Assembly (NCBI RefSeq): GCF_000003605.2 | Contig: NW_003147276.1 | Span: 358,118-422,117, forward strand | Direction: 5' to 3' | From: Saccoglossus kowalevskii | Lineage: Eukaryota > Hemichordata > Enteropneusta > Harrimaniidae | Length of the DNA: 64,000 bases | In this document: positions 29,101-57,700 of the stretch, piece by piece | Layout of the letters: the number at the start of each line of letters is the position of its first letter | Position numbering within the stretch: the first letter of the stretch is position 1 | Program-made: the position numbers and the translations under genes | The notes under the pieces: model-generated | Told to the model about the DNA's origin: nothing | Seen by the model: the letters and a program-made list of their open reading frames with translations, nothing else | Databases searched by the model: none

Positions 29101-32100
29101 TTCAGCAACTTTCTCAGCAGCTACTTCAGGTTCTGAAAAAGATTAGAATTAATGAGATTTTTGATTTGATAATAACTCAACTCTCCAACAATTTTTATTC
29201 AAAGCAAGTAAATAGTAAGCAGCAATCATTAGAATCCAAATCCAATAATCATCTATATGGGCAAATATAAAAAATAAGGCAATTGTGACAATTACTCACC
29301 TGGTTTTTTAAGAGTGTTGACAATGTCAGATTCTGGACTAGGTTCACTCACACCAACAACATTTTCTGCACTCACACGGAACACATATTGTGTATCTGGT
29401 GCCAAGTTTTTCACAGAGTACGTTGTGGTCTTGTTGCTAGTTGTCAATACAGTCCAAGTGTTTGTGGTCACATCACACCTCTCAATGATGTATGATGTAA
29501 TGGGACTTCCGCCATCAGATGTTGGTGGCTCCCATGTCAGAGTCAATGTGGATGGAGTGATGTCAGAAACTTCTGGTTTACCTGGTGCAGAAGGTTTATC
29601 TGAAAGAAGAAACACAACTCATCAACTGGTTCTAACTGACGGTAGGCTGCTTGTCACTCAAATTTGTAGTCAGGAGACTTCAATAACTCAAATGTTTATT
29701 AGATTTTCAAATTTATTCTGGTCCTGACATGTAGTCATACTTATAGCAAGGTAGAAAATTTTCACTGGTCCATTTATATATAGTTCCCAATTGGACCATT
29801 TTCCGTTGACTGCGAAAATCGCACGTTATGCGTGAAATCGAACGTAAAAACAGGACAAACAAAGGTCATAGCGTCGTAGTGGCGTCAAACATCGCGTGGG
29901 ATTCGACAAACGCGAAGTATTTTGGGGGACATTTCCATGCATAATAATGTGCTGCCCACATTTCATGATAGGCAATTTCGATTAAGTAAGGGTATTCGGA
30001 AGCAATATTCCTCTGTCGAAGATCGGCCGGTCGTTGTGAGTTACGAAATAAAGAAATTCTAGTTCAAAATCTAATTGTTCGACTTTTGCGGCAGAGGTTC
30101 GACGCGTGTCTTTCATACATCTCGCAATTGTACGGAAAATCACCTATTGGTGAAATGCACAGCACATTTTTACCTTCCAGGGATCATACAACCCCACCTG
30201 CCATAAACAGGCACACATGGCTTAAGTGCCAAATATTCCATGTTGGGTTCTTAATTCCACAAAGGTAGTTCCTTGCCAAAGATACAACACCATGGCAGGT
30301 TTTTTTCTGAAATGGAGAACAGGGGCGCAGCGTCCTGATACTCTCGGCTGACACCCCCTTACCGAATTGCCAATTGCCTTACCGAAAGTCATAAATATAT
30401 TTCTTGAGCCGCACACTTCCGTGCTGCCGTACAACATGAAATCTTTCTCAAATATATTTTTCTCTCCAAAAACTACCCATCAACACCAAATAAACTAAAA
30501 TTACTGCAAAAATATTTCATTAGCAATAGATACACTGTTAAAACGGCGCAGAAACTTTCCGATATGGCGGTTCCCTGTTGATCCGCCATGTTGTTTTTGT
30601 GCTAGCTACTCTCTTTCCACTCCTCGTATGTGTGTGCTCCCTCTTGTTCATTTTTTCTAGAAAAACCCCTATGGTATAGCCGGGACCAAATTGACAACTA
30701 ACACACACCACCCAGCCACAGGATCATTCAAAAACTCACCATATACTGTAATTGTCAGTTTATGTTGATCCATCCCATGTTCATTTTCCACTTCCATTGA
30801 GAATTCACAAGAATCATCTGGCTGAATGTCTTCAATCGTTAAAATGGAATAGGTCTCTTTCACCTCAATAGCGTATCTACCTGTAGATTCTATCTCGTTC
30901 TTTCCCCGATACCAGAAAACATCTGGTTTGGGGATGCCACGGAAAGTACATTTGAGAGGGATAGTATGTCCACGTTTCACTGACATGTTAGCAGGCCCTT
31001 CTGTAATCTTTGCTGCCACTGTTGGGTAGAGAGAAGGCAGTTAAAGAGTTAAAAAGCTTTCATTGATGTCAGTTCATTTTGCCAGTAGAAATTAGTTGTG
31101 ATTTTAGATAGACTTGGTAACATGTCAGTGAGAGTTTGCATGCATAGGCCTGTACTAGTAGTTTAATTTTGCTGCAAGCTGCAGCCATTGAAGCACCCCA
31201 TCACCAGGCAACCACCATTTTAACAGGACTTGGGATTTAAGTGGAATAGTCTAGATGGCAGATTTTGAATATGGTGCAAATGGTTTCAACTCATGCAAGT
31301 AGCATTTCATCGTTTGAGTGCAGACAGAAACAAGAATCACACATGTGCACACATCACACACACAATGCAGATTAGATGTGCGGAAAAACAGCAGGCAGAA
31401 AAGCTTGATGGTGTTTAAATTATACAAAACAATTTGTTAACTATAAATTGGGCATTTTAATTTTCCTACAGATAAATTTCCATTAATTTTCTGAGAAACA
31501 GAAAATTTGTGTTGCAGCGAAAATTATATTGGTGTTCATTAGGCAATTACCAATAGACGGTCAGCATGACCTCCAAAATGTCACACACATCCATTTTAAG
31601 AATACAATTCACTATTAATGAGAATTCTCCATTATTTTACCTAAAAAATGAAAGCAGCTGTCATTTGTCGTTGAAGTTCAAGAATATTTAATGATAGCAA
31701 GGTATAATTTTGGAAATTATTGCTTTGATAGAGCATGAATGTCCCTATAAAGTACCAGGATGTGTGACCTTTAGGGGTCATACATAACACCAGGATGTGT
31801 GACCTTTAGGGGTCATACATAATACCAGGATGTGTGACCTTTAGGAGTCGTACATTGTACTAGGATGCGTGACCTTTAGGGGTTGTGTATAATGCCAATT
31901 GGTCATTGCCTAATAAACCCCAATTTTATTTTCACTGCTACACAAATTGTCTGTTTCTCGTAAAATTAATGGAAATTTATCTATAAAAATGAATGTTTGG
32001 TAACAGTACCGGCAGATATCACACTGCAGGGATGTCATAACAAGTTTCCAAAACTTTAATATCCACGAATCTATCAAATTATTAATAATATATGCCATGC

Positions 32101-35100
32101 AAAACAAGCTATGTGCCAAAGTGCAGAGAGAATGTTTTAGGTACATAATGCATAAATAAACAGTAGATTAGTTAATGTATTAAAGACAAAAAGATCTTCA
32201 ACCTTGTCCACCCCTACATGTATTTGAATGGCTAAGCCCCTATGTTGACAAATATAGGGTTATACGAAAGTGTGAGGGTGAACATGTTGAAGCAAATACA
32301 AAAGCGGTTCCAAAATAGTACATGTACAACCAAAAGATTTTACTACAAGGGTGACAGCATATTGATAACAGGCGCGGGAGATTGGAAGTTTCAGGTATAT
32401 TGGAATAAATTATGAGCATGCAAGACTGAAACATTATGAAGAATCTGAAGGTGAAAGGTGAACTGGCAAAGCAGAATCATGTGAAATGGTCAATATGTCA
32501 CTACAATTGCATGTCAATCTTCCATGAAAAATGTACAGGATTCAATGCAAGCAATTCAGTTCACATTAACAACATTTATTTCAAACTAAAAAAAGTTATA
32601 TCCAGTAATTGCTCAAAAAAAAAAATTGAAGCTAAAGATGGATAGTTTAGGGATCAATGCACTTAAATTAGCATGGATAAGTTTGCTATAATTCCAGATA
32701 AAAAGAATGCAAAAGCAAAGCATAAAATAAGAAAAGACTACAAAAAATTACTGCTTGCCAAGCCAATACTAATCTCTACAGATGATATATAATAATTTAC
32801 TTGATTATAGTACATCTAAGGCATATATAATTCATATTTATGTTGAGTTATTAGTTCCTGAATAGTGCCAAATTCAAAATTAGAATTCAATATTTGTAAG
32901 AATGTTACATAAACATCATAATTTACAATCATAGCTGTAACAACAAGTCTTTTATTAATTGGCAAACTCGGCATTTTAAAATAAAATCATTCCACTTTTA
33001 TATGCTAGGCATATACAAATTTATATGCTCAAACACAAATTCAATTTCTTCAAATCACAAGCATAAACAGTTCCGAAATTAAAAGTAACGATTATCCTTC
33101 AAAAGGTAGAGTGTGTTTTTTTTTCAGGAACATGTAATTATAAAAATATTTTATAGAAGCTGCGATTTGGATCAACTGGATGAAGATAAACCATACCTGG
33201 GAAGAAGCAAAAAAAGAACCAGAAAGGGTATAAGCAGCGAGCTGAAAATGAGAAGAATATAGTGCAGCAGCTGTTGGCAAGACTATGCCACTGAAGTTCT
33301 ATTTACAAAATAATGAAAAACAAGACAGCAAGACTAACCTTGTAAGATGAGTTCAGCAGATGTTGATGCTTCTCCCACTTTGTTGGTTGCTTTACAGGTG
33401 TAGGTAGTAATATCATCCAAACCAAGATTATGCAAAGTTAGCATACAAACTCCATCATCGGTGTACTCAATCACTGTGCGGGCAGTTATCTTGACTTTAG
33501 CTTTTTTCTTGAACCACTGCACATCTGGTCTTGGTAAACCAGTGACTTTACACTTCATAGTGACACTAGTTCCTTCAAAGGCATTGGCTGGTTCAAGTTC
33601 CTGCACAAACACAGGTGGTTCTTGTAGAATTGTGATAGTGCACACAGCTTTGTCCTCACCTAGATCGTTAGTTGCTTTGCACGTGTATTTGACCACAGTC
33701 CTTTTGTTTCAATTCATTGACAATAAAACTGTGTTCATCTTTTTCATCGTCATAACTGACATTATACTCGGCTCCTTGTTGGCAGTGTTTCCATCCTTTA
33801 AACCATCCAATGGTGGGGTCTGGATTTCCAGTCACTCGACATCTCATTTCCGCAGGAACACCTTTTTAAACAAAAAAAGTTCACATTATTGTAACAAGAA
33901 ACACATTGTATATCTCCAGTACTATGCCGAAAAGAAATGACTCTTTAATTTTGCTCTCTAAGACCATTACTGAAGCTTTACCAGGGTCTTGGGGATATCA
34001 TGTGGAATATTTGATGATCTGAATAGCAATTAATTGCGGAAAATAGTTGCTATTTCACATGGATGTGTCTTTTATTCTGAATTAATAGAAAGGATGGTGA
34101 TTTTGATTACATTATCAAGAGCATGGCACAGACATCACATGTCATCTAAACACATTCACATGCAAATATGAAATATATTGTTTACTGCATATACACTTTG
34201 GACTTTACACTAGCTCTGTATTGTGTACGTGGCAAAAAAATATTGTATCATATCTTACACTTATCTGATATTATCAAAAAGAGTTGCAAAATAAAGAGAG
34301 ACTCACCTTCAGGAGCTGAAATATCATTTGGTTTCACAATGAACATTGGTGGCCTCAAAGCAACTGTAAACAAATCCAATAAATCCAATGTTATGATTGT
34401 AATAACACGGTTAATCATGTGCAAATTAAGAAAACATAAAAGTTAATAATTAATCAGACTACATGTAATAAGCCATGAAAAAAAGATGTCTTCTACATGA
34501 GCTAAATATATTAAGATAATAAATAAAACTTTCAAAATTGAAACATACCTTCCACAATAAGTTGAGCTTTAGTAATGGCTTCCCCGACAACATTAGTAGC
34601 TTTACAGGTGTACATGTTTGCATCTCCAACACTGGCAATCTTGATAACCAAGACACATACACCACTATCACTGTACTCAATCCTAACATTTTCTCTCTCT
34701 TCAATCTCAACACCTTCAAGATACCATTTCACTTCTGGATGAGGTCTTCCAATAACTTGGCATTCAAAGTGTACCATCTTTCCTTCAGTAACAGTTATGG
34801 TTTGTAGTTCCTTGGTGAACACAGGGGCTTCTTTAGCAGGTTCAATAATGACCTCAGCTCTTGTGACTGCTTCACCTGCAGGATTAACAGCTTTACACAT
34901 GTACTCAGCTTCATCCTCAGCAGTAGTGTGTTCAATGTCCAAAGTAGACTCCATTTCTTTGGGGCAGCCAATTCTAAGGTGATCATCTGCAGCAACCTCC
35001 ACATCATCTTGATACCAGGTCATAGTTGGCAGCGGTTCTCCTTTAACCTCAACATCCAGATGCAGCTGACAGCCTTCTTCCACTGTGATAGGGACCAACT

Positions 35101-38100
35101 CCTTCACGAAAACAGGAGGGGTCAAGTCAAGAACTTCTTCAACCTTTTCTTCCACAACTGGTTTCACCTCTTCCTCAACCTCAGGTTTCATTTCCTCCGC
35201 TGGTATTTCTACTGCAAAATCAACAGTGTCAAATTTATCTTCTGGCTTTTCTTCCTCAATTTCTTTCTTGAGAGTAAACTCAACCTCTTCCTCAGGAACA
35301 TCAACCTCAACTTTCACAGGCTGAACTTTCAATGTAACCTCAAGTTGTTCATCAACAGGTGCTTCGACTGCCATCTCAGTTTTCACAGTCACTTCTTCCT
35401 TAACAACTTCGTCTAACGCAGGAAGAGCTTCTGCAACTGGTGTCTCATCTTCAACTGCAATCTCAGTTTCTACAGTTACTTCTTCCTTCATAACTTCTTC
35501 CATAACTGGAACTGCTGCTTCAATTGGGGCTTCTTCTTCAACAAACTCAACGACCTCTTCCACTATAGGCTCAGGTTCTGGGACTGGTTCTGAAATACAA
35601 AATATTAACAATGTAAATATCTCACACTGTCAATGCTTAAATAATTATTAATAATAATAAATAATTTGTGATCAATTGCTCTCTTATATGATGAAAGTCA
35701 GAGATTCATAGATGTCTTCAAGCAGCATTTCCAATGATAATACAAAGCATTAAGATCATTACATATTTTTTAACAATGTCAGACCAATGCAACATGATAT
35801 AAACCAAGAACAATACTGTTCATAAACAAATATTTAGCAATGTTAGGTTGATTATTAACACATCACTCCATGCTACTTACCAGGTGTTGTTGGCTTTTCA
35901 ATTAGTGTAACTGTAAAACTAGCTTTTTCTTCACCCAAGTCATTTGTAGCTTTACACACATATTTACCACCATCTTTAGGTTTGCTCTCTTTAATAATAA
36001 AGATGTGTTCATTGGTGTCTTTATCAAAAGTCACAGTGTATTCATTGCCTTCTTGACAGTGTTTCCATCCTTTGAACCAGCTCACAGTTGGAGTTGGGAT
36101 GCCATGGACTTTGCAGCGAATCTCAGCAGGATAAGCTATATAACAATCAAATAACATAATATCATTATAGGTAGGTTTGAAAATGAAATGACACAAATGG
36201 TACTTATGCTTATAAGTAATCTACTTGTCTATGATCAAAGCTACTTTTCAATAATCAAATCATTTTTTTATAATAATCATAGAAGATAAACTCACTTTTG
36301 ACAGCTTCTTTGTCTTCAGGTTTAATGACGAATGTTGGTGGGCATTTAGCAGCTGAAGTAAAAAAAAAAACAAGTAAATAAGATAACCTGATTGTGATAG
36401 AAACTTTAAATAGTTAACTGAATTAAGCATGGGAACTTATTCATATTTAACAATCAATGTTACTAATAAATAACTTACGCAGAACAAACAGTTCAGCTCT
36501 GCAGGTTTCAGATCCTACTTTATTCACAGCCTTCACTTCAAATTCTCCTTCATCATCCATACTGACTTCCACAATTTTCAAAGTACAGATGCCACTCTCA
36601 CTGTATTCTACCACATAATGGTCATTTTCATCGATTTGGACACCATCCAAATACCATGTCACTTCTGGTCTTGGAGATCCTGTCACTTCACATTCGAATA
36701 CAACACGTTGTCGTTCTTCAACTTCTTGTTCTTCAATTTTTCTGACAAACACTGGTGGTTCAAGAGCTTTTTCAATCTCAATGGCTTCTTTTCTGGCTTG
36801 GAAACCTCTGAATGCAGCTTGAATCTGAACAGCAGCTTTTTCAACATCTTTGTCTTCTAAATCAATGTCAATAACTTCCTCTTCATCTCCAACTGGTGCT
36901 TCAATCAAATCAGCCTCTACTAAAGTTGGTTTGGGTTTCTCTTCTGGTGTCAGCTCCAGTTTAAAGCTTACTTCCTCTGATGGCCCTTCAAATTCTACTT
37001 CAGCAGAGGTAACNNNNNNNNNNNNNNNNNNNNNNNNNNNNNNNNNNNNNNNNNNNNNNNNNNNNNNNNNNNNNNNNNNNNNNNNNNNNNNNNNNNNNNN
37101 NNNNNNNNNNNNNNNNNNNNNNNNNNNNNNNNNNNNNNNNNNNNNNNNNNNNNNNNNNNNNNNNNNNNNNNNNNNNNNNNNNNNNNNNNNNNNNNNNNNN
37201 NNNNNNNNNNNNNNNNNNNNNNNNNNNNNNNNNNNNNNNNNNNNNNNNNNNNNNNNNNNNNNNNNNNNNNNNNNNNNNNNNNNNNNNNNNNNNNNNNNNN
37301 NNNNNNNNNNNNNNNNNNNNNNNNNNNNNNNNNNNNNNNNNNNNNNNNNNNNNNNNNNNNNNNNNNNNNNNNNNNNNNNNNNNNNNNNNNNNNNNNNNNN
37401 NNNNNNNNNNNNNNNNNNNNNNNNNNNNNNNNNNNNNNNNNNNNNNNNNNNNNNNNNNNNNNNNNNNNNNNNNNNNNNNNNNNNNNNNNNNNNNNNNNNN
37501 NNNNNNNNNNNNNNNNNNNNNNNNNNNNNNNNNNNNNNNTCTCCCACATCTTTCTTGATCTCAAATGACACCTCCTCCATTTGCTGTTGATCAATGGAGA
37601 CATCAAATTCAGCTCTGGCTGGCTTCATCTTCATTTCGATCTCAACTTTCTCTTCACTGACTGGTTCTACCTTCAATTCAGCATCTACCACAGCTGGTTT
37701 GGGCTTTTCTTCTGGTGTCAGTTCCAGTTGAAAGCTTACTTCCTCAGATGGTCTTTCAAAGTCTACTTCAGCTGATGTTACCTGTGGTTCTTCTACACTT
37801 TTCTTGATCTCAAATGACACTTCTTCCATTTGCTGTTGCTCAATGGAAAGCTCAAATTCAGCTTTTGCTGGCTTCATCTCCACTTCAACCTCTACTTTCT
37901 CTTCACGTACTGGTTCTTCTACAGGTACTTCAACCTCAAGTCTAACCTCTTCCTGAATTACAGGTTCTTCTTCAACAGGTTTGGTAATTTCAACTGGCAT
38001 AATTTCTTCCACAGGTTCTGGCCCTTGTACAGGTTCTATAGAAAAGTAATATTATGTGATATGTATGAAAAGCTCAAAACAATACACAGTAAATACACTG

Positions 38101-41100
38101 TAACATTCAGTAAAGCATTTGTGAACATACATTACAATGATATGTCAAATAGTTGATGTGGCCTTAACAATGTGTTATAACCTCCAAGATGAATAGTCAA
38201 AGTTTAAATTATTTACAACTTACAAAAAACATTTACTTACTGAATTGTCATAGTAAGCATTCTAACTGGTTTTAACAAATATTGTGATGATGGTATATGA
38301 TTGGTTATTCTGTTGAGCTTACTTTACACATCATCAAGTATTTAGGCGTATAAAACTAACTTTAATCTATGACATATAATTCCATTCTACTTACCAGGTG
38401 TTGTTGGCTTTTCAATTAGTGTAACTGTAAAACTAGCTCTTTCTTCTCCCAAGTCATTTGTAGCTTTGCACACATATTTACCACCATCTTTAGGTTTGCT
38501 CTCTTTAATAATAAAGATGTGTTCATTGGTGTCTTTATCAAAAGTCACAGTGTATTCATTGCCTTCTTGACAGTGTTTCCATCCTTTGAACCAGCTCACA
38601 GTTGGAGTTGGGATGCCATGGACTTTGCAGCGAATTTCAGCAGGATAAGCTGTAGAATGAGAAAGTTCCAGTAAAATCATACTCAGGCAGTTCAGGATAG
38701 CATCACCCTCCACTGAGCACCAGCCGATACAATTACCATACTGCCTCCATGCATACTTTGAAGTGTTCTCGTGATAACTTCATTTTATTGCAAGTTTTGA
38801 AAAGCAACCAAAAGACAAAAAATAATCCTATGTATTGTAATACATCGACTCCATAAAGATTTCACACAATGCAAACACTTTGTCAATATTATAGTGATGA
38901 ACTAAGTTCAACAGCATGATTGTGTGTTTCTAGTGAAAACAGAGATTTCAATGTTCAGTATATCTCACTTATACACAATAAATTAACCAAATTAACCAAT
39001 GCATAGTATAGTATACTGACCTTTGACAGCTTCTTTGTCTTCAGGTTTAATGACAAATGTTGGTGGACATTTAGCAGCTAAAATATAATTATAAGCATAT
39101 GAGACATAAACACATGTAAGTTGTTGAAAACCAATAATTTAAAATTGTCAGGGAAATGTCCTAATCATGAAAATTGTTTCTTTTAACACCTTATTTATAC
39201 TTCAATAATACTAATAAACAACTTACGTAGTACAAACAGTTCAGCTCTGCAGGTTTCAGATCCTACTTTATTCACAGCCTTCACTTCAAATTCTCCTTCA
39301 TCGTCCATACTGACTTCTACAATTTTCAAAGTACAGATGCCACTCTCACTGTATTCTACCACATAATGGTCATCTTCATCTATTTGGACACCATCCAAAT
39401 ACCATGTCACTTCTGGTCTTGGAGATCCTGTCACTTCACATTTGAATACAACACGTTGGCGCTCTTCAACTTCTTGTTCATCAATCTTTCTGACAAACAC
39501 TGGTGGTTCAAGTGCCTTTTCAATCTCGATGGCTTCTTTTCTAGCTTGGAAACCTCTGAATGCAGCTTGAATCTGAACAGCAGCTTTTTCAACATCTTTG
39601 TCTTCTAAATCAATGTCAATAACTTCTTCTTCATCTCCAACTGGTGCTTCAATCAAATCAGCCTCTACTAAAGTTGGTTTGGGTTTCTCTTCTGGTGTCA
39701 GCTCCAGTTCAAAGCTTACTTCCTCTGATGGCCTATCAAATGCAACTTCAGCAGAGGTAACTTGTGGTTCTCCCACGTCTTTCTTGATCTCAAATGAAAC
39801 CTCTTCCATTTGGTGTTGGTCAATGGATACATCAAATTCAGCTCTTGCTGGCTTCACCTGCATTTCAACCTCAACTTTTTCTTCACTGACTGGCTCTACC
39901 TTCAATTCAGCATCTACCACATATGGTTTTGGCTTTTCTTCTGGTGTCAGCTCCAGTTGAAAGCTTACTTCCTCGGAGGGTCTTACAAATTCGACTTCAG
40001 CAGACGTAACCTGTGGCTCTTCTATGTCTTTCTTGATCTCAAATGACACCTCTTCCATTTGCTGTTGCTCAATGGAAACCTCAAATTCAGCTCTGGCTGG
40101 CTTCATCTCCACTTCAACCTCTACTTTCTCTTCACTGACTGGTTCTTCTACAGGTACTTCAACCTCAAGTCTAACCTCTTCCTGAATTACAGGTTCTTCT
40201 TCAACAGGTTTGGTAATTTCAACTGGCATAATTTCTTCATCTATTTCACAAACTTCTTCTACTGGTTCTGGCTCTGGTACAGGTTCTGTAGTAAAAAAAT
40301 GTTCTATTACATGTATGAAAACAGAGAGCACAGTAAAGGGAGAAAAACATTCAAATCAATAATTGTGATCATACATTAGGATGATGTATCGAATATTTAA
40401 TTTATTCTTCAGGTACCCTTAACAGTGGGTTGATTCAACAAGATGAAAACTAAATTGTGGCAGTTTACAAGAACTTCATTGATTGTGGCTTAGACTGAAA
40501 TGTGATCACTTTTTTTTCAAACAAACAAACAAACAAACAAACATGACATATCTTCCTTGCTGTATGCCTTTAATCTTTCACCAACTGAATCTTTAGTTAT
40601 TAGCTGTTTTATAACCTGTCTCTCAGTTGTTTGTTTCTTTGTTTTACTTCACATATTGCGAAGGATGTCAAGATGTTGTTTCTACTTACATATCAACATG
40701 TTTTTTTTTTATAAAAACAAACTTAATTCAATAACATATTATATAAGGTGACTCACCAGGTGTCGGTGGTTTCTCAATTAGTGTAACTGTAAAACTGGAT
40801 TTTTCTTCTCCCAAGTCATTTGTGGCTTTACACACATATTTACCGGCATCTTTAGGTTTGCTTTCTTTGATAATAAAGATGTGTTCATTGGTGTCTTTAT
40901 CAAAAGTCACAGTGTATTCATTGCCTTCTTGACAGTGTTTCCATCCTTTGAACCAGCTCACAGTTGGAGTTGGGATGCCATGAACTTTGCAGCGAATTTC
41001 AGCAGGATAAGCTATAGGACAAGAAAATGCAATAACATATAATTTTCAACAGGTTTGAAAAGCTGCAAATGACAAACAACCGACATTACAATTGAAATTG

Positions 41101-44100
41101 ATGCCTTAGTAATTAATTATTAGGTCATTCACATTACTGAAAGCGGTAAAAACAATGTTTTCAATAGCAAGAATAGTAAAAAAAAAAGTACTATGGTCAC
41201 AATTTGCCATGAGGTTACTCATCAAACAAACATTGGCATGGCAAACACTAGTATATTCGCCTATGTCTAAGTAAATGACGTATACGTTATAACTGATAAC
41301 TTTCAAAGAATGTCTGAATCACATTTTTTATCCCTGCTGCTACCTTAAATTAATCAAAGACCAGCACAATAAACTCACCTTTCACAGCTTCTTTGTCTTC
41401 AGGTTTAATGACAAATTTTGGTGGACATTTTGCAGCTGAAATAAAATAACAAGTATATAAGATGTACATAAGTTGATAGACAAGTCCTTGTCAATGACAT
41501 ATTCCCCATTTATATATTTGGCTGAATTAGTATTCGAATATACCATTGTTTCAATACAATTGGCCCTGGGATGCCTGAGAATGACTGCTGATATGTTAAA
41601 ATATAGTGATTTGAGTATTTTTTTGGACAAAAATGGTGGCCACTCAAACTGAACAAAATTATTTACACCACAATTTTTGTCTTAACTTTGCACACACAAA
41701 AAAAAAGTGAAAGTGTATCTGAGAAACAGGTAGCACGGACAAAAGTTTGTTTTGGATCTAAAAAAATAGCGAGTCAGTCAAATGTAAATATAACCCAAAA
41801 CAAAGGACATCCATATGTATGTTATTTTAGACTTGCTTTTGTACCACGTTCAACAAAATCCTTTGAGTTTTCTGAAAAATTATGTTGAATAGAAGCATGC
41901 ACTGCCAATGTGTTTTACATGACAGGTCCAATAAGGACTAAAAAGCAAGAATTTAAACTGTTGAGAATTAAACAAATCAAGATAATTGATTTTGGTACAC
42001 TAATTATTTTTCACTTCAATAGTACAAAAAACAACTTACGTAGTACAAATAGTTCAGCTCTGCACACATCAGATCCTACTTTATTCACAGCCTTCACTTC
42101 AAATTCTCCTTCATCGTCCATACTGACTTCTACAATTTTCAAAGTACAGATGCCACTCTCACTGTATTCCACCACATAATGGTCATCTTCATCGATTTGG
42201 ACACCATCCAAATACCATGTCACTTCTGGTCTTGGAGATCCTGTCACTTCACATTCGAATACAACACGTTGTCGTTCTTCAACTTCTTGTTCTTCAATTT
42301 TTCTGACGAACACTGGTGGTTCAAGAGCTTTTTCAATCTCAATGGCTTCTTTTCTGGCTTGGAAACCTCTGAATGCAGCTTGAATCTGAACAGCAGCTTT
42401 TTCAACATCTTTATCTTCTAAATCAATGTCAATAACTTCCTCTTCATCTCCAACTGGTGCTTCAATCAAATCAGCCTCTGCTAAAGTTGGTTTGGGTTTC
42501 TCTTCTGGTGTCAGCTCCAGTTCAAAGCTTACTGCTTCTGATGGTCTTTCAAATTCTACTTCAGCAGATGTAACCTGTGGCTCTTTTACATCTTTCTTGA
42601 TTTCAAATGACACCTCTTCCAGTGACTGTTGATCAATGGATACCTCAAATTCAGCTTTGGCTGGCTTCATCTTCATTTCAATCTCAACTTTCTCTTCACT
42701 GACTGGTTCCACCTTCAATTCAGCCTCTACCACAACTGGTTTGGGTTTTTCATCTGGTGTCAGCTCCAATTCAAAGCTTACTTCCTCAGATGGTCTTACA
42801 AATTCGACTTCAGCTGATGTAACCTGTGGCTCTTCTATGTCTTTCTTGATCTCAAATGACACCTCTTCCATTTGCTGTTGGTCAATGGAAACCTCAAATT
42901 CTGCTCTGGCTGGCTTCATCTCCACTTCAAAATCTACTTTCTCTTCACTGACTGGTTCTTCCACAGGTACTTCATCTTCAAGTGTAATCTCTTCCTGGAT
43001 TACAGGTTCTTCTTCAACAGGTCTGGCAATTTCAACTTTCATCACTTCTTCAACTAGTTCCAAAACTTCTTCTACAGGTTCCGGCTCTTGTACAGGTTCT
43101 GCAGAAGACATTGGCAGAATATCAAGTAGTGTTATGAAAGTTAAAACAAAATCAGGATGCAAAACTAAACAAAGAATATACTTGTTAAGACAACCTCATA
43201 ACATATTGAAGCAATACTGAATTCATACAAAACAACTTTCAGAAAATCTAAAAGTCAAATGAAGGAATAAATCAAATACCAGGTATCTTACCAGGTGTAG
43301 GTGGTTTCTCAATTAGTGTCACTGTAAAACTAGCTTTCTCTTCTCCCAAATCATTTGTAGCTTTACACACATATTTACCACCATCTTTAGGTTTGCTCTC
43401 TTTGATAATAAAGATGTGTTCATTGGTGTCTTTATCAAAGGTCACAGTGTATTCATTGCCTTCTTGACAGTGTTTCCATCCTTTGAACCAGCTCACAGTT
43501 GGAGTTGGGATGCCATGGACTTTGCAGCGAATTTCAGCAGGATAAGCTATATAACAATTAAATAACATAATATCATTATAGGTAGGTTTCAAATGAAATG
43601 ACACAAAATGTAGAGAACTTATGCATCTCTATTAAGGAACATGATTATAAGTAATCTACTTGTCTATGATCAAATCTACTTGTCAATGATCAAATGGATT
43701 TGTTTATAGTAATTACATAAGATAAACTCACCTTTGACAGCTTCTTTGTCTTCAGGTTTAATGACGAATGTTGGTGGGCATTTAGCAGCTGAAGTAAAAA
43801 AAACAAGTAAATAAGATATACTGATTGTGATAGATAACTTAAATAGTGAACTGAACTAAGCATGGGAACTTATCCATATTTAACAATCAATAATACTAAT
43901 AAATAACTTACGCAGTACAAACAGTTCAGCTCTGCAGGTTTCAGATCCTACTTTATTCACAGCCTTCACTTCAAATTCTCCTTCATCGTCCATACTGACT
44001 TCTACAATTTTCAAAGTACAGATGCCACTCTCACTGTATTCTACCACATAATGGTCATCTTCATCGATTTGGACACCATCCAAATACCATGTCACTTCTG

Positions 44101-45647
44101 GTCTTGGAGATCCTGTCACTTCACATTTGAATATAACACGTCGTCGTTCTTCAACTTCTTGTTCTTCAATTTTTCTGACAAACACTGGTGGTTCAAGAGC
44201 CTTTTCAATCTCAATGGCTTCTTTTCTGGCTTGGAAACCTCTGAATGCAGCTTGAATCTGAACAGCAGCTTTTTCAACATCTTTGTCTTCTAAATCAATG
44301 TCAATAACTTCCTCTTCGTCTCCAACTGGTGCTTCAATCAAATCAGCCTCTACTAAAGTTGGTTTGGGTTTCTCTTCTGGTGTCAGCTCCAGTTCAAAGC
44401 TTACTTCCTCTGATGGCCTATCAAATTCAACTTCAGCAGATGTAACCTGTGGCTCTTTTACGTCTTTTTTGAACTCAAATGACACCTCTTCCATTTGTTG
44501 TTGGTCAATGGAAACCTCAAATTCAGCTTTGGCTGGCTTCATCTTCATTTCAATCTCAACTTTCTCTTCACTGACTGGTTCTACCTTCAATTCAGCCTCT
44601 ACCACAGCTGGTTTGGGTTTTTCTTCTGGTGTCAGTTCCAGTTGAAAGCTTACTTCCTCAGATGGTCTTACAAATTCGACTTCAGCGATGTAACCTGTGT
44701 CTCTTCTATGTCTTTCTTGATCTCAAATGACACCTCTTCCATTTGCTGTTGCTCAATGGAAACTTCAAATTCAGCTCTGGCTGGCTTCATCTCCACTTCA
44801 ACCTCTACTTTCTCTTCACTGACTGGTTCTTCCACAGGTACTTCATCCTCAAGTGTAATCTCTTCCTGGATGATAGGTTCTTCTTCAACAGGTTTCGCAA
44901 CTTCAACTGTTATCTCTTCTTTAACTATTTCAAGAACTTCTTCTACAGGTTCTGGCTCTTGTACAGGTTCTATAGAAAAGTAATATCATGTGATATGTAT
45001 GAAAACCTCAAAACAATAAACAGTGAAGACAGAATAATAATTAGATAAACTTTTGTGAACATACATTAACATGATATGTCAAATAGTTGATATGGCCTTA
45101 ACAATGTGTTTTACCACCAAGATGAAATGTCAAAGTTTAAATTATTTACAACTTACACAAACCATTAATTTCCTGAATGTTGATAGTAAGCATTCTAACT
45201 TGTTTTCGCAAATATTGTGATGATGGTATATGATTGGTTATTCTGTTGAGCTTACTTTACACATCAGCAAGTTTTTAGGCGTAAAAAACTAACATTAATC
45301 TATGACATATAATGCCATTCTACTTACCAGGTGTTGGCGGCTTTTCAATCAATGTAACTGTAAAACTGGCTTTTTCTTCTCCCAAGTCATTTGTAGCTTT
45401 ACACACATATTTACCACCATCTTTAGGTTTACTCTCTTTAATAATAAAGATGTGTTCATTGGTGTCTTTATCAAAAGTCACAGTGTATTCATTTCCTTCT
45501 TGACAGTGTTTCCATCCTTTGAACCAGCTCACAGTTGGAGTTGGGATGCCATGAACTTTGCAGCGTATCTCAGCAGGATAAGCTGTAAGACAAAAGAGTT
45601 TTAACATTAGAAACAATTCACTGATCAAATAGATTGCCATTGAAATA

Positions 45648-45702
<55 letters not shown>

Positions 45703-48700
45703 TGGTAAATTAAATACATGAGAAAAAAATCGTGCATGTCATGTAACAAAATAATAGTATCAACACAATCACTTGATCATTTCATAATAGTTTCTTTTAT
45801 AATGTTGATATATTTTTGTCTTATTCACTTCATACAATGTCTACATTAACACCAATTAATAGCACCCACCTTTGACAGCTTCTATATCTTCTGGTTTCTT
45901 CACAAATATTGGAGGACATTTAGCAGCTGATTAATATAAAAAGGTACATGAGATATGAAAAGTCATTACTTATCCAAATAGAGATGTTATCAGAGTTTAC
46001 ACATTTATGATGCATATGGTTCAAACATTTATACAAACACAAATGTGGGAATGCTTTGATCAACTGCAGACTCATGGTGTACAACTCAGTCAGTTATCAA
46101 TGGAACATTAAAGAGCCAAATGATTGTCAACTGAAGAATAATATTATTCAAGAACATTATCCTAGTATTCAGCAAAAATAATTTTAGCAAAGAACTTACG
46201 CAGTACAAACAGTTCAGCTCTGCACACATCAGATCCTACTTTATTCACAGCCTTCACTTCAAATTCTCCTTCATCATCCATACTGACTTCTGCAATTTTC
46301 AAAGTACAGATGCCACTCTCACTGTATTCTACCACATAATGGTCATCTTCATCTATTTGGACACCATCCAAATACCATGTCACTTCTGGTCTTGGAGATC
46401 CTGTCACTTCACATTCGAATACAACACGTTGTCGTTCTTCAACTTCTTGTTCTTCAATCTTTCTGACAAACACTGGTGGTTCAAGAGCCTTTTCAATCTC
46501 GATGGCTTCTTTTCTGGCTTGGAAACCTCTGAATGCAGCTTGAATCTGAACAGCAGCTTTTTCAACATCTTTGTCTTCCAAATCAATGTCGATAACTTCC
46601 TCTTCATCTCCAACTGGTGCTTCAATCAAATCAGCCTCTACTAAAGTTGGTTTGGGTTTCTCTTCTGATGTCAGCTCCAGTTCAAAGCTTACTTCCTCTG
46701 ATGGTCTTTTAAATTCAACTTCAGCTGTTGTAACCTGCGGTTCTCCCACATCTTTCTTGCTCTCAAATGAAACCTCTTCTATTTGCTGTTGGTCAATGGA
46801 TACCTCAAATTCAGCTTTGGCTGGCTTCATCTTCATTTCAATCTCAACTTTCTCTTCACTGACTGGTTCGACCTTCAATGCAGCCTCTACTACAGCTGAT
46901 TTGGGTTTTTCTTCTGGTGTCAGCTCCAATTCAAAGCTTACTTCCTCAGATGGTCTTTCAAATCCTACTTCAGCTGATGTAACCTGTGGCTCTTTTACAT
47001 CTTTCTTGATTTCAAATGACACCTCTTCCATTTGCTGTTGGTCAATGGAAAGCTCAAATTCAGCTTTGGCTGGCTTCATCTTTATTTCAACCTCTACTTT
47101 CTCTTCACGTACTGGTTCTTCCACAGGTACTTCAACCTCAAGTGTAATCTCTTCCTGGATGATAGGTTCTTCTTCAACAGGTTTGGCAACTTCAACTTTC
47201 ATCACTTCTTCAACCATTTCAGCAACCTCTTCCACAGGTTCTGGCTCTGGTACCGGTTCTACAAAAAAGGCAACAAAATATTCACTAAATAAATAATCTG
47301 AAAAGATTCCATTCCACAAAAGAAAGCAATATTTCGAATATTAACAGCTGACAATAAAATAAACCATAAATAATGAATTTTCTATGAAGTGTTATTTATG
47401 TACTTTATTGCATCATGTGTGGTATGATGTTCAGTGTGTCTGCCAAGTATTGCGTATTTCACTCCTGTGGTCAGCAGCATACTCAGCAATAAAAAAAGTG
47501 CATGCTGCACAATTGCCAAATTTGCACACATCTAGTTGGGTTTTGGTATACAAAACAGGAGACTGACTGACTGTGTTTGCTTTTTCTGTCTTCAATGCAT
47601 GTTAGAAGATCAAAAAATTCTCAAATAAAGAGTCACAGACATTCTGTGGCATTATTGGCTTGTATGACTCAACCACAAAAACAGAATATGTGAAAGTGTT
47701 TGGCATGGACGACAGTATGATTCATTTCATCAAAGCTACTTACCAGGTGTGGGTGGTTTTTCAATTAGTGTCACTGTAAAACTGGCTTTTTCTTCTCCCA
47801 AGTCATTTGTAGCTTTACACACATATTTACCACTATCTTTAGGTTTGCTCTCTTTAATAATAAAGATGTGTTCATTGGTGTCTTTATCAAAAGTCACAGT
47901 GTATTCATTGCCTTCTTGACAGTGTTTCCATCCTTTGAACCAGCTCACAGTTGGAGTTGGGATGCCATGGACTTTGCAGCGAATTTCAGCAGGATAAGCT
48001 GTATAATAAAGAAAGCATAGTTCAACACATACATCAAACATAGATGCTGTTAGGTTTGTTCAGTACTTATTCAAACAGGACACTATCTCATAACACAAAG
48101 ACATTGATTTTCAGAATGTGATTACACATCATATTAAGCTGCATGTCAATCTTCTCTGTTTCAAAAACTTTCTCTATAAAAGAGAAAACAAACCTTTGAC
48201 AGCTTCTATATTTTCTGGCTTAATCACAAATGATGGAGGACATTTTGCAGCTGAAATATTGAAGAAAAAAAAAACATGTTACAAACATGAAAACAGTGAA
48301 AACACACCAACTACATTCATTCTACCCAGCAACCAAAAAACTTTGAAGATGCAGGATTTACACACATAATCTTGACAAAGTGCCTCACCACTGTTAGCAC
48401 ATGTGTACCTTGGTGTCAGTAACTGCTCCGAAAAATTTGCTTCAAAAAGCATGAAATAAATGCAACTAACAATGACTAGACGGATGTGCATAAGCCAGAT
48501 CACTGATGTCACAACCTACATACATATAAAGCCAATAATTCAGTCAGTAAGACCTACCCAGTTATCATTGCCCTCAGGACAAGTTCATGTCCACCAAAAG
48601 ATATTAAATTATGACAAGTTCATGTTCAACAGCAGTAAATGATTAATGCCAAACTTACGCAGTACAAACAGTTCAGCTCTGCACACATCAGATCCTACTT

Positions 48701-51700
48701 TATTCACAGCCTTCACTTCAAATTCTCCTTCATCATCCATGCTGATTTCTGCAATTTTCAAAGTACAGATGCCACTCTCACTGTATTCTACCACATAATG
48801 GTCATCTTCATCTATTTGGACACCATCCAAATACCATGTCACTTCTGGTCTTGGAGATCCTGTCACTTCACATTCGAATACAACACGTTGTCGTTCTTCA
48901 ACTTCTTGTTCTTCAATCTTTCTGACAAACACTGGTGGTTCAAGAGCCTTTTCAATCTCGATGGCTTCTTTTCTGGCTTGGAAACCTCTGAATGCAGCTT
49001 GAATCTGAACAGCAGCTTTTTCAACATCTTTGTCTTCTAAATCAATGTCAATAACTTCCTCTTCGTCTCCAACTGGTGCTTCAATCAAATCAGCCTCTAC
49101 TAAAGTCGGTTTGGGTTCCTCTTCTGGTGTCAGCTCCAGTTCAAAGCTTACTTCCTCTGATGGTCTTTTAAATTCTACTTCAGCTGATGTAACCTGCGGT
49201 TCCCCCACTTCTTTCTTGATCTCAAATGAAACCTCTTCCAGTGGCTGTTGATCAATGGATACCTCAAATTCAGCTTTGGCTGGTTTCATCTTCATTTCAA
49301 CCTCAACTTTCTCTTCTTTCATTGGTTCCACCTTAAATTCAGCTTCAACCACATCTGCTTTGGGTTTCTCTTCTGGCGTCAGCTGGAAGCTTATTTCCTC
49401 TGGCTTGACTTCTACTGTCGTTGTAGTTGTAGTTGTTTCAACCTTGACAATTTCTTCTACTGTTTTAGTTTCTGAAAAAAAATCCAAGACAGATAAATGA
49501 AGAAAATAGTTTTTTTTTTCAAGTAATACTCCATAGAAGATTATGTAACCATTAATAAAGGAGAATGTTGACACTAATTTCAAAATTATTACCTTTGCTA
49601 ATCACAAATATGTCAGTAGAACATGAAGCAGAACCGAAGTCATTTGTAGCTTTACATGTGTACTCAGCATCATCATCTTCTGTCACAATGGGTATAATCA
49701 GGGTACAATTGCCTTCATCATCAGTAATAACAGAGTAGTGTGGGCTTGGCCTGATCACATCCTCGTCCTTATACCAGCAGATATTAGGCATTGGTTTACC
49801 AGCTACTTTACAATCTAATGTAGCTTGTTCCCCTTCTGGGACCTCCACTCCAGTAAGTTCCTTCACAAACTTAGGTGGCTCACCGCTTGGTAGTTCAAGT
49901 TGGAATTGTACCTCTTCAGGAGCAGTTTCTATTTCAATCTTTTGTTCAGTAACAACTTCTTTCCTCTCAACAGTGATTTCTTTCTTTATTTTCACTTCTT
50001 CCTCTTCTATAACATAAACATAAGATACATTGCATTGGAGTTGCATTAACTTACAAGATCCTAAAATAAAGGAAGTTGACTATAAAAAAACAGCATCACT
50101 GCATATTATCATTCCAATATTGATGGATTTGTTGATTCAAACTAATAATATTCATTAAGAGAAAGCTGTTTAACCAGCATATTTACACATATGAAACAAT
50201 AGAATGAATTGCCCTGTATATGTAAGGGCAGACAGATATCAAAAAAAGTTAAAGGGCGCCATTTAACATTTAGAAAAAAAGCTGACATAATAAGAATATG
50301 CTGAAAAAAATAAAAAAACAGTAATTTAAAGAAAATGTAAAAATATTAAGTTTCTAGCACAGGTTTGATCGATCGATCACCCACTCGCAAAGCAAACTAA
50401 CTAACAAACTAACTAACCACTAAACTATGACGTTTCCCTAATAGACAAAATACACTTAAAAAAACTTTAGTCACAAAAAATATACAGTTAACTATTTTTA
50501 GAATATCAACTCCAAAATCTATACAAGCCAAGTGCACCTACAATCAGTTTGATATTTTTGGAGTTATCACGCCCACAATAAAAGTTTGTCAATGGCGCCA
50601 GATGACAGTGATTTTGCCACCTCTTGTAACTTTCACTTCATAACGGGAAAGCCAAAAATACATTAAAATATGCATATTAATTGCTTCATACCTTCTCGAA
50701 CATTAAGTTGTACAGAACATTTAGCCTTTCCAACAGGATTAACTGCTTCAATTGTAATTGTACCAGTATCCTCAGGGAAAGCTTCTGGTAGTGTCAAGCT
50801 ATAAACATCAACATCATCATGCTTTGATATAAAGACTTTATCATCACTAACTGGTTTGTCATCATGTAACCATATAATATCTGGTTTCGGTTTACCAATC
50901 ACTCGACATTTGAACTCAGCCTTTTCTCCTTCTGTGATTGTCTGACTTTGAGGAAGTACAATAAATTCTGGAGGTTCCATTGGTTCCACTGGCAGGGGTT
51001 CTATAGAAAGAAGATATTGGATGAATTACTGAATAATGTATGTACCAAAAGAAATCACCATGCATCATGCAGTTTACTGTCTCTGTAGTCTAGCACTAAT
51101 TTTATGACTTCTTTAGTGAAATAGCTGCATCATATGAAGTATATTTGACTTGTTTTTATTCCAGATTTGTTAAGAAAATTTAACGACACTTTTGTTATTT
51201 GTCAATAATTTGTAAAGTAAGAGGAAATTGATATTACAATATTTTATTTACTGATGTTGAAAAATACACAAACAAATATATACCAAATATGATATTTATT
51301 GAAATATGAAACAAGTTGATAAAGGCAGATTTGATAATGATAAAATCAAAATCAAAATTTCATAAAAGTTAACACAGCTTCAACAAAAAAAGACATAAAT
51401 GCTACTCAAAGCTTGAACCTCAGTACTGTTCTTACAAAACTGAAAAAACAAAATTAAAACTGATGCAAAAAAACATAAAACGAACAAAATAAAAGTGTGC
51501 AGATAAACCCTATAAAATAGAAATCGTAAACCAGGGAAAATATTGAACTCAAAATTACCCAGCTAAATACATATATCCAAAGTGCAATCTATAAATCAGG
51601 AATGTCATTAGACATTTCTTGAACTTGTGACTGTTATATATTTATGTATGTGATAATTTACATGTTATTGAAATTACCAATTATTTTATTCAGTATATGC

Positions 51701-54700: not shown

Positions 54701-57700
54701 TGAGTTATCAATACCTTCAACAAGTAGTTCTGCACTACTGGAAGCCATTCCAGCTTTATTTTTCGCAACACATGTATACTTTCCGGAATCTTCTGGGAAA
54801 ACTTCTTTGATAAGCAAAGTACAAATACTACCATTGTAATCTAACTTGAAATCTTCAGAATCAGGTATCATGGTGCTTTGTCTGTACCAAGCTATAGAGG
54901 CTTAGGATTGCCTTCAACGCGACATTTCAATGTCACAGGTTTGCCATCTTTGGCACGTGTAGTGTTCAATAAGTCAATGAAGTGAGGAGGAACAAGATCA
55001 CCATCAAATGGTTCATCTGAGAAGAACGTGATTCATAATATTATAAAAGGTCAATACAAATAAAGATGCACATGCAGCATTCAAATTAAAATTATAACAT
55101 TGAACGATACAAATTCTACATAATAATATGAATCAAACAATATTGTACTATAATAATAATGATAACATTAATGAAAACAAAAAAAATCATTCACTTCTAA
55201 ATTATACAAATTTCGATCAGTTTACTGTTATTAATCAAAAACATCTAACACTACTTTTCAATGGGATTCTTATCAGTAAGCTCATTATTTGTTGCTTTGT
55301 TGTTTTTTATTATTATTATTTGACATGTGTTATGCAGATTCAAAGATGGACAGGCAAGTCACATCTCAAGAATAGTTTTCAATGGCAACAAGTTTGATTT
55401 TACTGATAGATATATTAGCACATTAGTTTGCTTACATAACTAAACACTACAAAATCACAAACTACAAGCAGCGTAATGTAAGCAGGTAAAACTTGAACAA
55501 GAATGTTTACCAGTTGTTAGTTTGTCACCCATTCCAATGGTCATACCTTCTCCCTCGGGCAGTGCGGCCATACTCTCAGCAAGCTGGTCTTTCAAATGTT
55601 GCTCATACGTCTCAAGTGTTTCTAAATAGGAGCCGGGCACCCAACCTTCTTCTCCATTTGGACGGCGGACTAACCACCAATCACCATGGTTACGTTCAAT
55701 CACAGTGAGTTCTTCACCTTCTCTTAACGACATTACTTCATCAGTCTCAGCGAGGTAGTTCCCAATAGCAACATAGGCTAGTGAAATTTCTTTCTTTTCT
55801 TCCTGCTCTTTTTCTGCAGATGAATTTAGAACAAGTTTAGAAACAAGATGTCAAATGAAAAATCAAGCTCTTTAGAAACCCTATAAATAACATAAAAACT
55901 TCTCACATTGCAAAAACATGCATATGTATGTACAACAGTGCAAATGCCATTATGAATGAGAGGATCAATACAAATAAAATAAACATTATAGCCTACCTTC
56001 AGTCACTTGTAATTCTTTCTCAAATACAACTTCCTATGATGTAAATGTATTTAAAAAAAGAAAATTAATAGAAATTATAGAAAAAAAAAAAAAAAGAGAA
56101 CACAAAATACAGTGAGAAAAAAATTAACAAATGCTGTGTTTTCACAGACATACTGTCAACTCTTATACATAGTGCAAGGAAAAGTAAATGCATGCCATAA
56201 TAACTCTTTCATAGCCACTGTGCATGTTCATCAAAAGGTGATACAATTTGGTGTGGAAGACATGGCAATGAAAGTGTTACTGTGCTGGATTCCATTACCT
56301 GTGTCTTTGGTTCAATCACAGTGGTTTTAATCGTCTTAACAATGGTCTCAACACCAGTAGGACTAGTGATGATCTCCACGATCTCTTCTTGAATTGTCTC
56401 TGGTTGTTTCATGTGTATAGTTTTCTAAACAATAATTTATTGATACTGATCATCCATGCTATACATGGTCAGGGCTAGTGGATCAGTTTTGAGCTAAACA
56501 CACTTTAGTTGTGGTAGTTCGTGCAAGTGGTAGTGCATGCAAGTGTACACCATACATTCACATATGTGCACACATTATTCCATCTCTTCACTTTCACACA
56601 AATACAATACATGTTTAGAACAGAAACAACAAAGTATTTAGTGGTCTAGTTGTATTGACCGCTAGTCTAGTATGACCACTAGTCATACAGGTTGTTGCTA
56701 TGCAAAAAACAGTTATTCAATTTGGCAGTCATCCCCAAAGTTAGCATGTAGTTTGTTAACAATTGTTAACTGTGATAGCATATCACAACACATATATCCA
56801 CTAAAAGGCACATATTAAAAATAGTACAGCCTGTATATGAGTGTTTGCCCTTCTAACATTGGCATATGATCACTCGCACTCGAGCACAGTTGCCAAAATT
56901 TGGTCAGTCGTATATGAACCACAATCATGTATCTACATGCATTATTTGTAGCGAATTTCCAGCCTAATTAGTGATTAGCTCACAAAGTTGTAACAGCTCT
57001 AACTTGACTGTTAGTTATATTTGTGTTTAATAGAGCAACATTTAAATCTTTTTTAATCTCTACTATTTTGTTTGTTTTCATATGATTCAGTTTCCTGTTT
57101 GGAGACAATATCAAAAACATCAAAATAACTGCAGACACTACATGTTTCTGAAGTACGATGAACACTGTAAGAGTTACTAAGCTTTATATTAAAAAAAATC
57201 TTTGACAATACATTAGGTAGAACAGTGTCTCTCTGAAGGCAGGGTCTAGTGAAAACAAACTAGAACAAACTTCTGCGTACAAACCCCAAAAAGAGTCAAT
57301 CATGGTAAGTAAGTATATTAAAATACACAACATTGATGACAAGTAAAATGTTTTTTTAAACCCATATATATGAATTAGACGTGAATGAGAACCATGATTC
57401 ATACCTTTACAGTGTCAGGCTTTTCTTCAATGGTCATTTTAGTCACTGTAACTTCTTCTTTTGTAATGGTTTCTTTTTCAATGACTTCTTTATCCGAAGT
57501 AACTTCTACAGTGAAAAATGACAACAATTGTAAGCAGCTATTTTATAGATAAACTTTTTCTACACTTTACTCGTATGTCATTCCACAATAATGAGTAATC
57601 TTTTTCTGAATCTTTTCTGATAAATGAAAACCCAGACATTACTTTAATAATGCTTATCGATAAAGGAAACTATGATTATTTATAGTGCATTAGTTGTATA

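Follow-up and report, generated by a model that had tools for sequence, protein, structure and literature searches.

A 64,000-nucleotide stretch of the genome of the acorn worm Saccoglossus kowalevskii (contig NW_003147276.1, here C3771, positions 358118–422117; assembly of 572 Mb) carries on its minus strand, at 35881–49471, an array of six tandem cassettes within what appears to be a giant elastic protein. This whole stretch is referred to as the window. Plain positions refer to it, and positions given with C3771 refer to that contig. Each cassette joins an acidic PEVK-like linker, an acidic stretch followed by an IQ motif, and two Ig domains, and the acidic+IQ segment resembles the calmodulin binder PEP-19 (PCP4). 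On the basis of sequence and of analogy with known proteins, we consider it rather probable that the array is an internally duplicated spring whose cassettes, each with a PEP-19-type acidic+IQ segment and two Igs, dock calmodulin and tune its calcium kinetics along an elastic filament.

The motif IQAAFRGFQAR occurs six times on the minus strand, and these are the sole matches to [FILV]Qxxx[RK]Gxxx[RK] in the six reading frames of the whole window. All six copies pass the Pfam IQ profile PF00612 with 26.0–26.2 bits (cut-off 20.3), and all six modules pass the I-set profile with 84.9–86.6 bits (cut-off 23.7). A chance match to the IQ pattern is ruled out by the six Pfam passes and by the invariance of the segment. 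The original prediction, of six genuine IQ motifs in the regular order PEVK-like linker, IQ, Ig and second Ig, agrees with both Pfam and the splice model described below, which also gives the same outer limits, 35881 and 49471. It had, however, overlooked the acidic residues ahead of the IQ. The IQ is present, but the unit is a PEP-19-like acidic+IQ segment rather than a bare IQ.

The exon structure was obtained from a splice model made in this analysis without transcripts. Each module starts with an exon A, encoding the PEVK-like acidic linker, the IQ and the first Ig (Ig-a), followed by a mini-exon of 57 bases and an exon C of 255 bases. The second Ig (Ig-b) is encoded jointly by these last two in all six modules, the mini-exon providing the first strand and exon C the remainder. 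A second Ig had been expected in each module and is indeed there, but it is split by an intron that had been overlooked; a short intronic element repeated in six of six modules is in fact the mini-exon. All the module exons begin and end in phase 1, so that modules could be gained or skipped with the reading frame kept.

In module 1, exon A lies at 48659–49471 (PEVK-like linker, then acidic+IQ with the IQ at 48972–49004, then Ig-a at 48663–48938), the mini-exon at 48194–48250, and exon C, with the rest of an Ig-b of KGWKHC type, at 47744–47998. The same three exons are found in module 2 at 46200–47258 (a linker with an 83-residue repeat; IQ 46513–46545), 45870–45926 and 45328–45582; in module 3 at 43912–44969 (a frameshifted linker; IQ 44225–44257), 43732–43788 and 43292–43546; and in module 4 at 42040–43098 (IQ 42353–42385), 41379–41435 and 40757–41011. 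Module 5 occupies 39227–40285 (IQ 39540–39572), 39021–39077 and 38395–38649, and module 6 occupies 36479–38035 (IQ 36792–36824), 36296–36352 and 35881–36135. In every exon A the order is linker, acidic+IQ and Ig-a, and all of these exons are on the minus strand. The array is flanked on the same strand by two exons without IQ: a short linker with one Ig before it (49593–50006), and an array-type linker with two Igs after it (34549–35589).

Modules 2, 4 and 5 are each 457 residues long, module 1 has 375 residues, and module 6 has 623, including a run of 526 N (37014–37539) in its linker. Module 3 has the length of a 457-residue module minus one base. The missing base produces a frameshift in its linker at about 44686, and the splice model places the start of its exon A at 44625, further in than 44969. 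The frameshift may be real or may be an assembly error. The linkers contain 62% P+E+V+K with a net charge of −20 per 100 residues (1098 residues in six linkers, namely those of modules 1, 2, 4, 5 and 6 and the IQ-free linker after the array, module 3 being omitted).

The acidic+IQ segment was then compared with proteins of known structure. A 42-residue query spanning the IQ, run against the PDB, aligned PEP-19 without gaps through the acidic part (E 0.0019). With a profile of 11 copies PCP4 ranked first, with E 4.2e-11 over positions 2–32 of 35; since two other contigs, C2531 and C4558, supply five of the 11 rows, this match tests the family and not the window copies alone. As a control, the acidic part of PEP-19 was shuffled in order 20,000 times for each comparison: no shuffle reached the real score with the six distinct C3771 copies or with the other loci, and 4 did so with the window copy by itself. 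The alternating acid and hydrophobic composition of the linker was rejected as the sole source of the likeness, since this control and the copies described below that bear a proline speak against it.

The structural details of PEP-19 allow a closer comparison. In the available parts of PMC5122967, which is the source for PEP-19 and neurogranin throughout, Phe30, Ile32 and Met34 of PEP-19 plug between helices E and F of calmodulin, residues 30–36 form an extended coil, and a helix runs from residue 38, eight residues before the IQ isoleucine, Ile46. The equivalent plug positions (−16, −14 and −12) are Ile, Ile and Leu in the window copies. An acidic stretch and hydrophobic plug at a fixed distance before the IQ are found in 12 of 12 readable copies on C3771 (six distinct sequences), and in all five copies tabulated from the two other loci. 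AlphaFold2 predicts a helix at residues 21–49, beginning ten residues before the IQ isoleucine and stopping close to the first strand of the Ig at 52, with neither helix nor strand in residues 1–20 and a confident Ig from 52 (pLDDT 95–98); the prediction is for a free chain, with a mean pLDDT of 86 and an alignment of 14 rows, six of them nearly identical. The gap-free alignment, the spaced hydrophobics, the alternating acidic residues and the helix after the acidic part are thus shared with PEP-19 and neurogranin. What differs is that the segment sits six times inside a giant Ig protein and has Lys in place of Pro37. The window unit is probably a PEP-19-type acidic+IQ segment.

The IQ motif is a generic binding site for EF-hand proteins. 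The IQs might thus bind a myosin-type light chain or another such protein, which would stiffen the helix or link the spring to another filament, and the IQs of myosin-5A and myosin-Ic do appear among the weaker PDB matches. The better and longer profile match, which includes the acidic part, is however to the calmodulin binder PEP-19, and we regard a light chain as distinctly unlikely.

The array shows strong conservation of the segment. Among the six copies none of its 51 residues differs, and the nine codons that vary do so synonymously. If random changes were free this would have a probability of about 4e-6, a figure that assumes nine independent codons and would be weakened by gene conversion. 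The dN/dS ratio is 0.21 for Ig-a, 0.045 for exon C, 0.11 for the mini-exon, and 0.51 for the last 30 linker residues, which adjoin the segment. The array exons are, from these comparisons, selected, homogenised, or both.

The introns are mostly dissimilar. Only 3 of 45 intron pairs reach an identity of at least 0.85: modules 3 and 6 share two such pairs, in introns 1 and 2, and modules 2 and 5 share one, in intron 3. A further comparison used one shuffle per pair, for which the highest identity was 0.57, 0.54 and 0.52 by intron: 13 of the 45 pairs exceed this maximum for their intron, and the other 32 do not, so that much of the array is probably not young. A block repeat with a spacing of about 6.93 kb is also present. 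Part of the array is thus a later block duplication, and much of it is probably old.

The clear tandem duplication and its 6.93-kb block, the frameshift in one module, and the ability of gene conversion to keep exons alike might all be explained if the array were a mostly neutral repeat expansion, carrying along an IQ without function. This would leave it surprising that the acidic+IQ segment is without amino-acid change in an array where 32 of 45 intron pairs show no more likeness than shuffled sequence does. We therefore give a passenger of this kind only a slim chance.

Several observations weigh against a PEP-19-type, calmodulin-docking cassette, and are gathered here. In the single-sequence PDB search, two ciliary IQ proteins and Sp17 outscore PEP-19. 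The position of PEP-19 Pro37 (−9) is Lys in all six window copies. The AlphaFold2 confidence is only 51–58 pLDDT in the acidic part and 68–80 in the helix. The pattern H[DE]H[DE]H occurs at 22 of 1068 linker positions, and is thus not very rare. The frameshift in module 3 is upstream of its IQ. The identity of the copies could come partly from gene conversion and not from strict protein-level selection. A copy elsewhere on the contig, at 189k, has no scorable Pfam IQ. Finally, the MLCK-type kinase discussed below is tied to the array by contig and strand, and the two may or may not lie on one transcript.

Further copies bear on several of these points. Readable acidic+IQ copies are present elsewhere on C3771 on the same strand, at 136k, 189k, 213k and, three of them, at 224–225k. 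Proline is found at −9 in all six, and also in copies at the two other loci. The 136k copy forms the end of a 1402-residue open frame, and the 189k and 213k copies have an Ig downstream in the same open frame. Of the copies outside the window, that at 136k and the two examined at 224k score above the Pfam IQ cut-off, and the 213k copy falls below it (18.4 against 20.3 bits). Units of the acidic+IQ kind are also found on C2531 and C4558, with 7 and 8 matches; part of each was read. At C2531:37701–38800 there are five in one open frame of 291 residues, and at C4558:306201–307200 there are more. We take these two loci to resemble the neurogranin/igloo proteins. In NCBIfam the two window proteins tried had no match, and the C2531 protein had one far under the cut-off. 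No relative of the IQ-Ig protein was confirmed among viral contigs (2 pattern matches) or bacterial and archaeal contigs (45), which is what an animal gene would lead one to expect.

What might the cassettes do? Apo-calmodulin is a ligand of PEP-19, and neurogranin binds calmodulin whether or not calcium is present. Calcium exchange is sped up by the acidic part of PEP-19, and the full effect on calcium kinetics requires Pro37 (PMC5122967). For a PEP-19-like acidic+IQ segment, the first expectation is apo-calmodulin docking with tuning of calcium kinetics. On this view calmodulin, or an EF-hand protein closely related to it, would sit on the IQ helix both at resting calcium and during activity, and the acidic stretch would lie beside calcium site III of calmodulin and make calcium exchange faster, as in PEP-19. 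The effect is perhaps weaker than that of PEP-19, because the proline is missing in the window copies. Six serial docks would concentrate calmodulin on the filament and hand it over quickly to calcium-dependent partners, and the row could serve as a local calmodulin store beside the MLCK-type kinase, encoded further downstream on this strand. Secondarily, occupancy of a helix that sits in line with the spring may also shift the extension at which that helix unravels.

The original prediction had put stiffness first: calmodulin binding and release at the IQ helices would mainly alter the stiffness of the spring, switched by calcium. The IQ helix does lie serially between a PEVK-like linker and an Ig, with its predicted end close to the Ig, and the PEVK region of titin binds the calcium-linked protein S100A1, as stated in the available part of PMC3859903. 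However, because PEP-19 binds apo-calmodulin and neurogranin binds calmodulin in either state, one would not at first expect occupancy to change greatly with calcium. The helix makes up only about 29 of the 457 residues of a module, so that any change in length would be small. Some calcium-dependent stiffness of the spring is possible, but as the principal role we judge it rather unlikely.

The surroundings of the array indicate the kind of gene in which it lies. A profile built from six window Igs matched 45 stretches between 62.5 kb and 2.7 kb, every one of them on the minus strand; of these, 59460–59603 is linker repeat, and several are two pieces of a single Ig. Ten window exons were scanned with Pfam. 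An SH3 domain (PF00018, 47.6 bits, cut-off 22.9) is encoded on the minus strand at 55512–55811, several exons 5′ of the array in the same run of exons. A MyBP-C-type tri-helix bundle (PF18362, 34.7 bits) followed by an Ig lies at 20181–20759, also on the minus strand, and a second at 11554–11766 on that strand has 19.4 bits, under the cut-off of 25. There is one Fn3 in the ten exons. In the readable part of C3771:1–200000, of which 88,662 bases are N, Fn3 was detected in three open reading frames (E 9e-15, 2e-5 and 0.01).

Downstream on the same strand, at C3771:192786–193307, is a kinase of the myosin light chain kinase (MLCK) type, with MYLK4 as the best PDB match (E 1.4e-62) and twitchin at 2.1e-52. 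It is followed by a stretch that may correspond to the calmodulin-binding segment of MLCK, and 3′ of the kinase, at C3771:188812–189447 on the minus strand, an acidic+IQ segment and an Ig are found. Close to the 3′ limit of the contig two more kinase-like regions are seen, near 22k (by motif) and 10k (by eye). On the 5′ side, C3771:428101–430200, whose matches in the genome search start within the pre-Ig portion of the query, encodes Igs and acidic linkers, with no IQ motif by eye in its open frame.

On the basis of the single Fn3 in the window, the tri-helix bundle, the SH3 and the MLCK-type kinase, the locus is called a titin/MLCK-class giant, and need not be a canonical titin. The description of the modules as titin-like thus holds for the tandem I-set Igs and PEVK-like springs, with titin as a broad class only. 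Stretchin-MLCK of Drosophila has many Igs, PEVK-rich repeats, very few Fn3 domains and an MLCK kinase at its 3′ end. We take the layout of our locus to resemble it, the likeness being one of layout and not of sequence, and we know of no IQ array in stretchin-MLCK.

Comparison with described giants shows both likenesses and differences; for every paper cited here, the statement refers to the part of the text available. Like the I-band of titin, the locus has tandem I-set Igs and PEVK-like springs, and the four best PDB matches of the IQ-Ig segment are titin fragments. The linker repeat has 83 residues here, against 28 in titin (PMC3859903). That titin has no such IQ array, as originally supposed, is in keeping with a 2019 paper stating that obscurin has a calmodulin-binding IQ motif “unlike titin” (PMC6509138). 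The 2013 review of giant muscle proteins that describes S100A1 binding also notes an IQ domain in obscurin (PMC3859903), and the term “IQ motif” is absent from its available text. Sallimus, the I-band part of Drosophila titin, has Igs, long PEVK stretches and five C-terminal Fn3 domains (PMC9886281), and in the available text of that paper the word calmodulin is absent.

Obscurin, too, has an IQ in a giant Ig protein, and vertebrate obscurin carries SH3, IQ and Ig domains (PMC12812942). The locus could thus be an obscurin relative in which a single IQ-Ig unit has been multiplied, and the SH3 in the same run of exons and the two kinase-like regions at the far 3′ end (one found by motif, one by eye) would fit. 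In obscurin, however, a single IQ is described near SH3, RhoGEF and PH domains, whereas here six IQs lie within a spring array and the SH3 is several exons 5′ of it. No RhoGEF or PH was found in the ten window exons scanned, and the rest of the locus was not searched for either. We consider a relationship to obscurin of this kind very improbable.

In the accessible literature on titin together with IQ, no description of an IQ array in a titin-type spring was found, most subscription papers lying outside the search. As far as their available text goes, papers on Schistosoma and octopus that hold both terms use them apart, and papers on repeat expansion, single-helix springs and cardiomyocyte calcium leave titin and IQ unconnected. 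No papers were found that treat neurogranin together with igloo, or the tri-helix bundle together with MyBP-C in invertebrates. The combination of possible calmodulin docks with a muscle spring was not encountered in the literature searched.

Other repeats are present in the window. At 5–1587 on the minus strand a 90-base repeat in 17.6 copies encodes a 30-residue unit, TWVIDASESKQSGDDTDTEQTADLPTKPEL, in an open frame; its exon has no Pfam match. A 162-base repeat in 4.1 copies at 59254–59921, on the same strand, encodes a 54-residue acidic unit; the open frame around it is 860 residues long, has an Ig at its end and includes a run of 72 N. An intronic 35-base tandem repeat (about four copies, 31711–31920) is accompanied by inverted arms of 111 bases at 31467–31577 and 31875–31985. 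Elsewhere in the assembly, contig C4830 has a mitochondrial COX1 on one strand and an ND1, identified by eye, on the other, with TGA within the COX1 frame. Nine ATA codons of this COX1 correspond in the best mammalian match to Ile (5), Val (2), Leu (1) and Met (1), and the single AAA to Lys. In view of the known mitochondrial codes, this codon usage and the ND1 frame next to it give a weak hint of a hemichordate.

A PEP-19-type cassette would have consequences for how such a filament works. The structure of PEP-19 with apo-calmodulin is a known template and gives clear predictions. If the cassettes bind calmodulin, a passive muscle spring would double as a calcium-signalling element with serial docks, and the acidic+IQ segment, familiar from small brain proteins, would be able to spread by exon duplication within a giant scaffold. 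More tentatively, and as a reading less likely than not, a giant elastic muscle gene may have taken up a neuronal-type calmodulin tuner, the acidic+IQ segment of PEP-19 and neurogranin, and copied it along its spring as well as next to its MLCK kinase. If this is true, the filament would be a stretch-exposed store of calmodulin that sets the speed of calmodulin's calcium response in the sarcomere.

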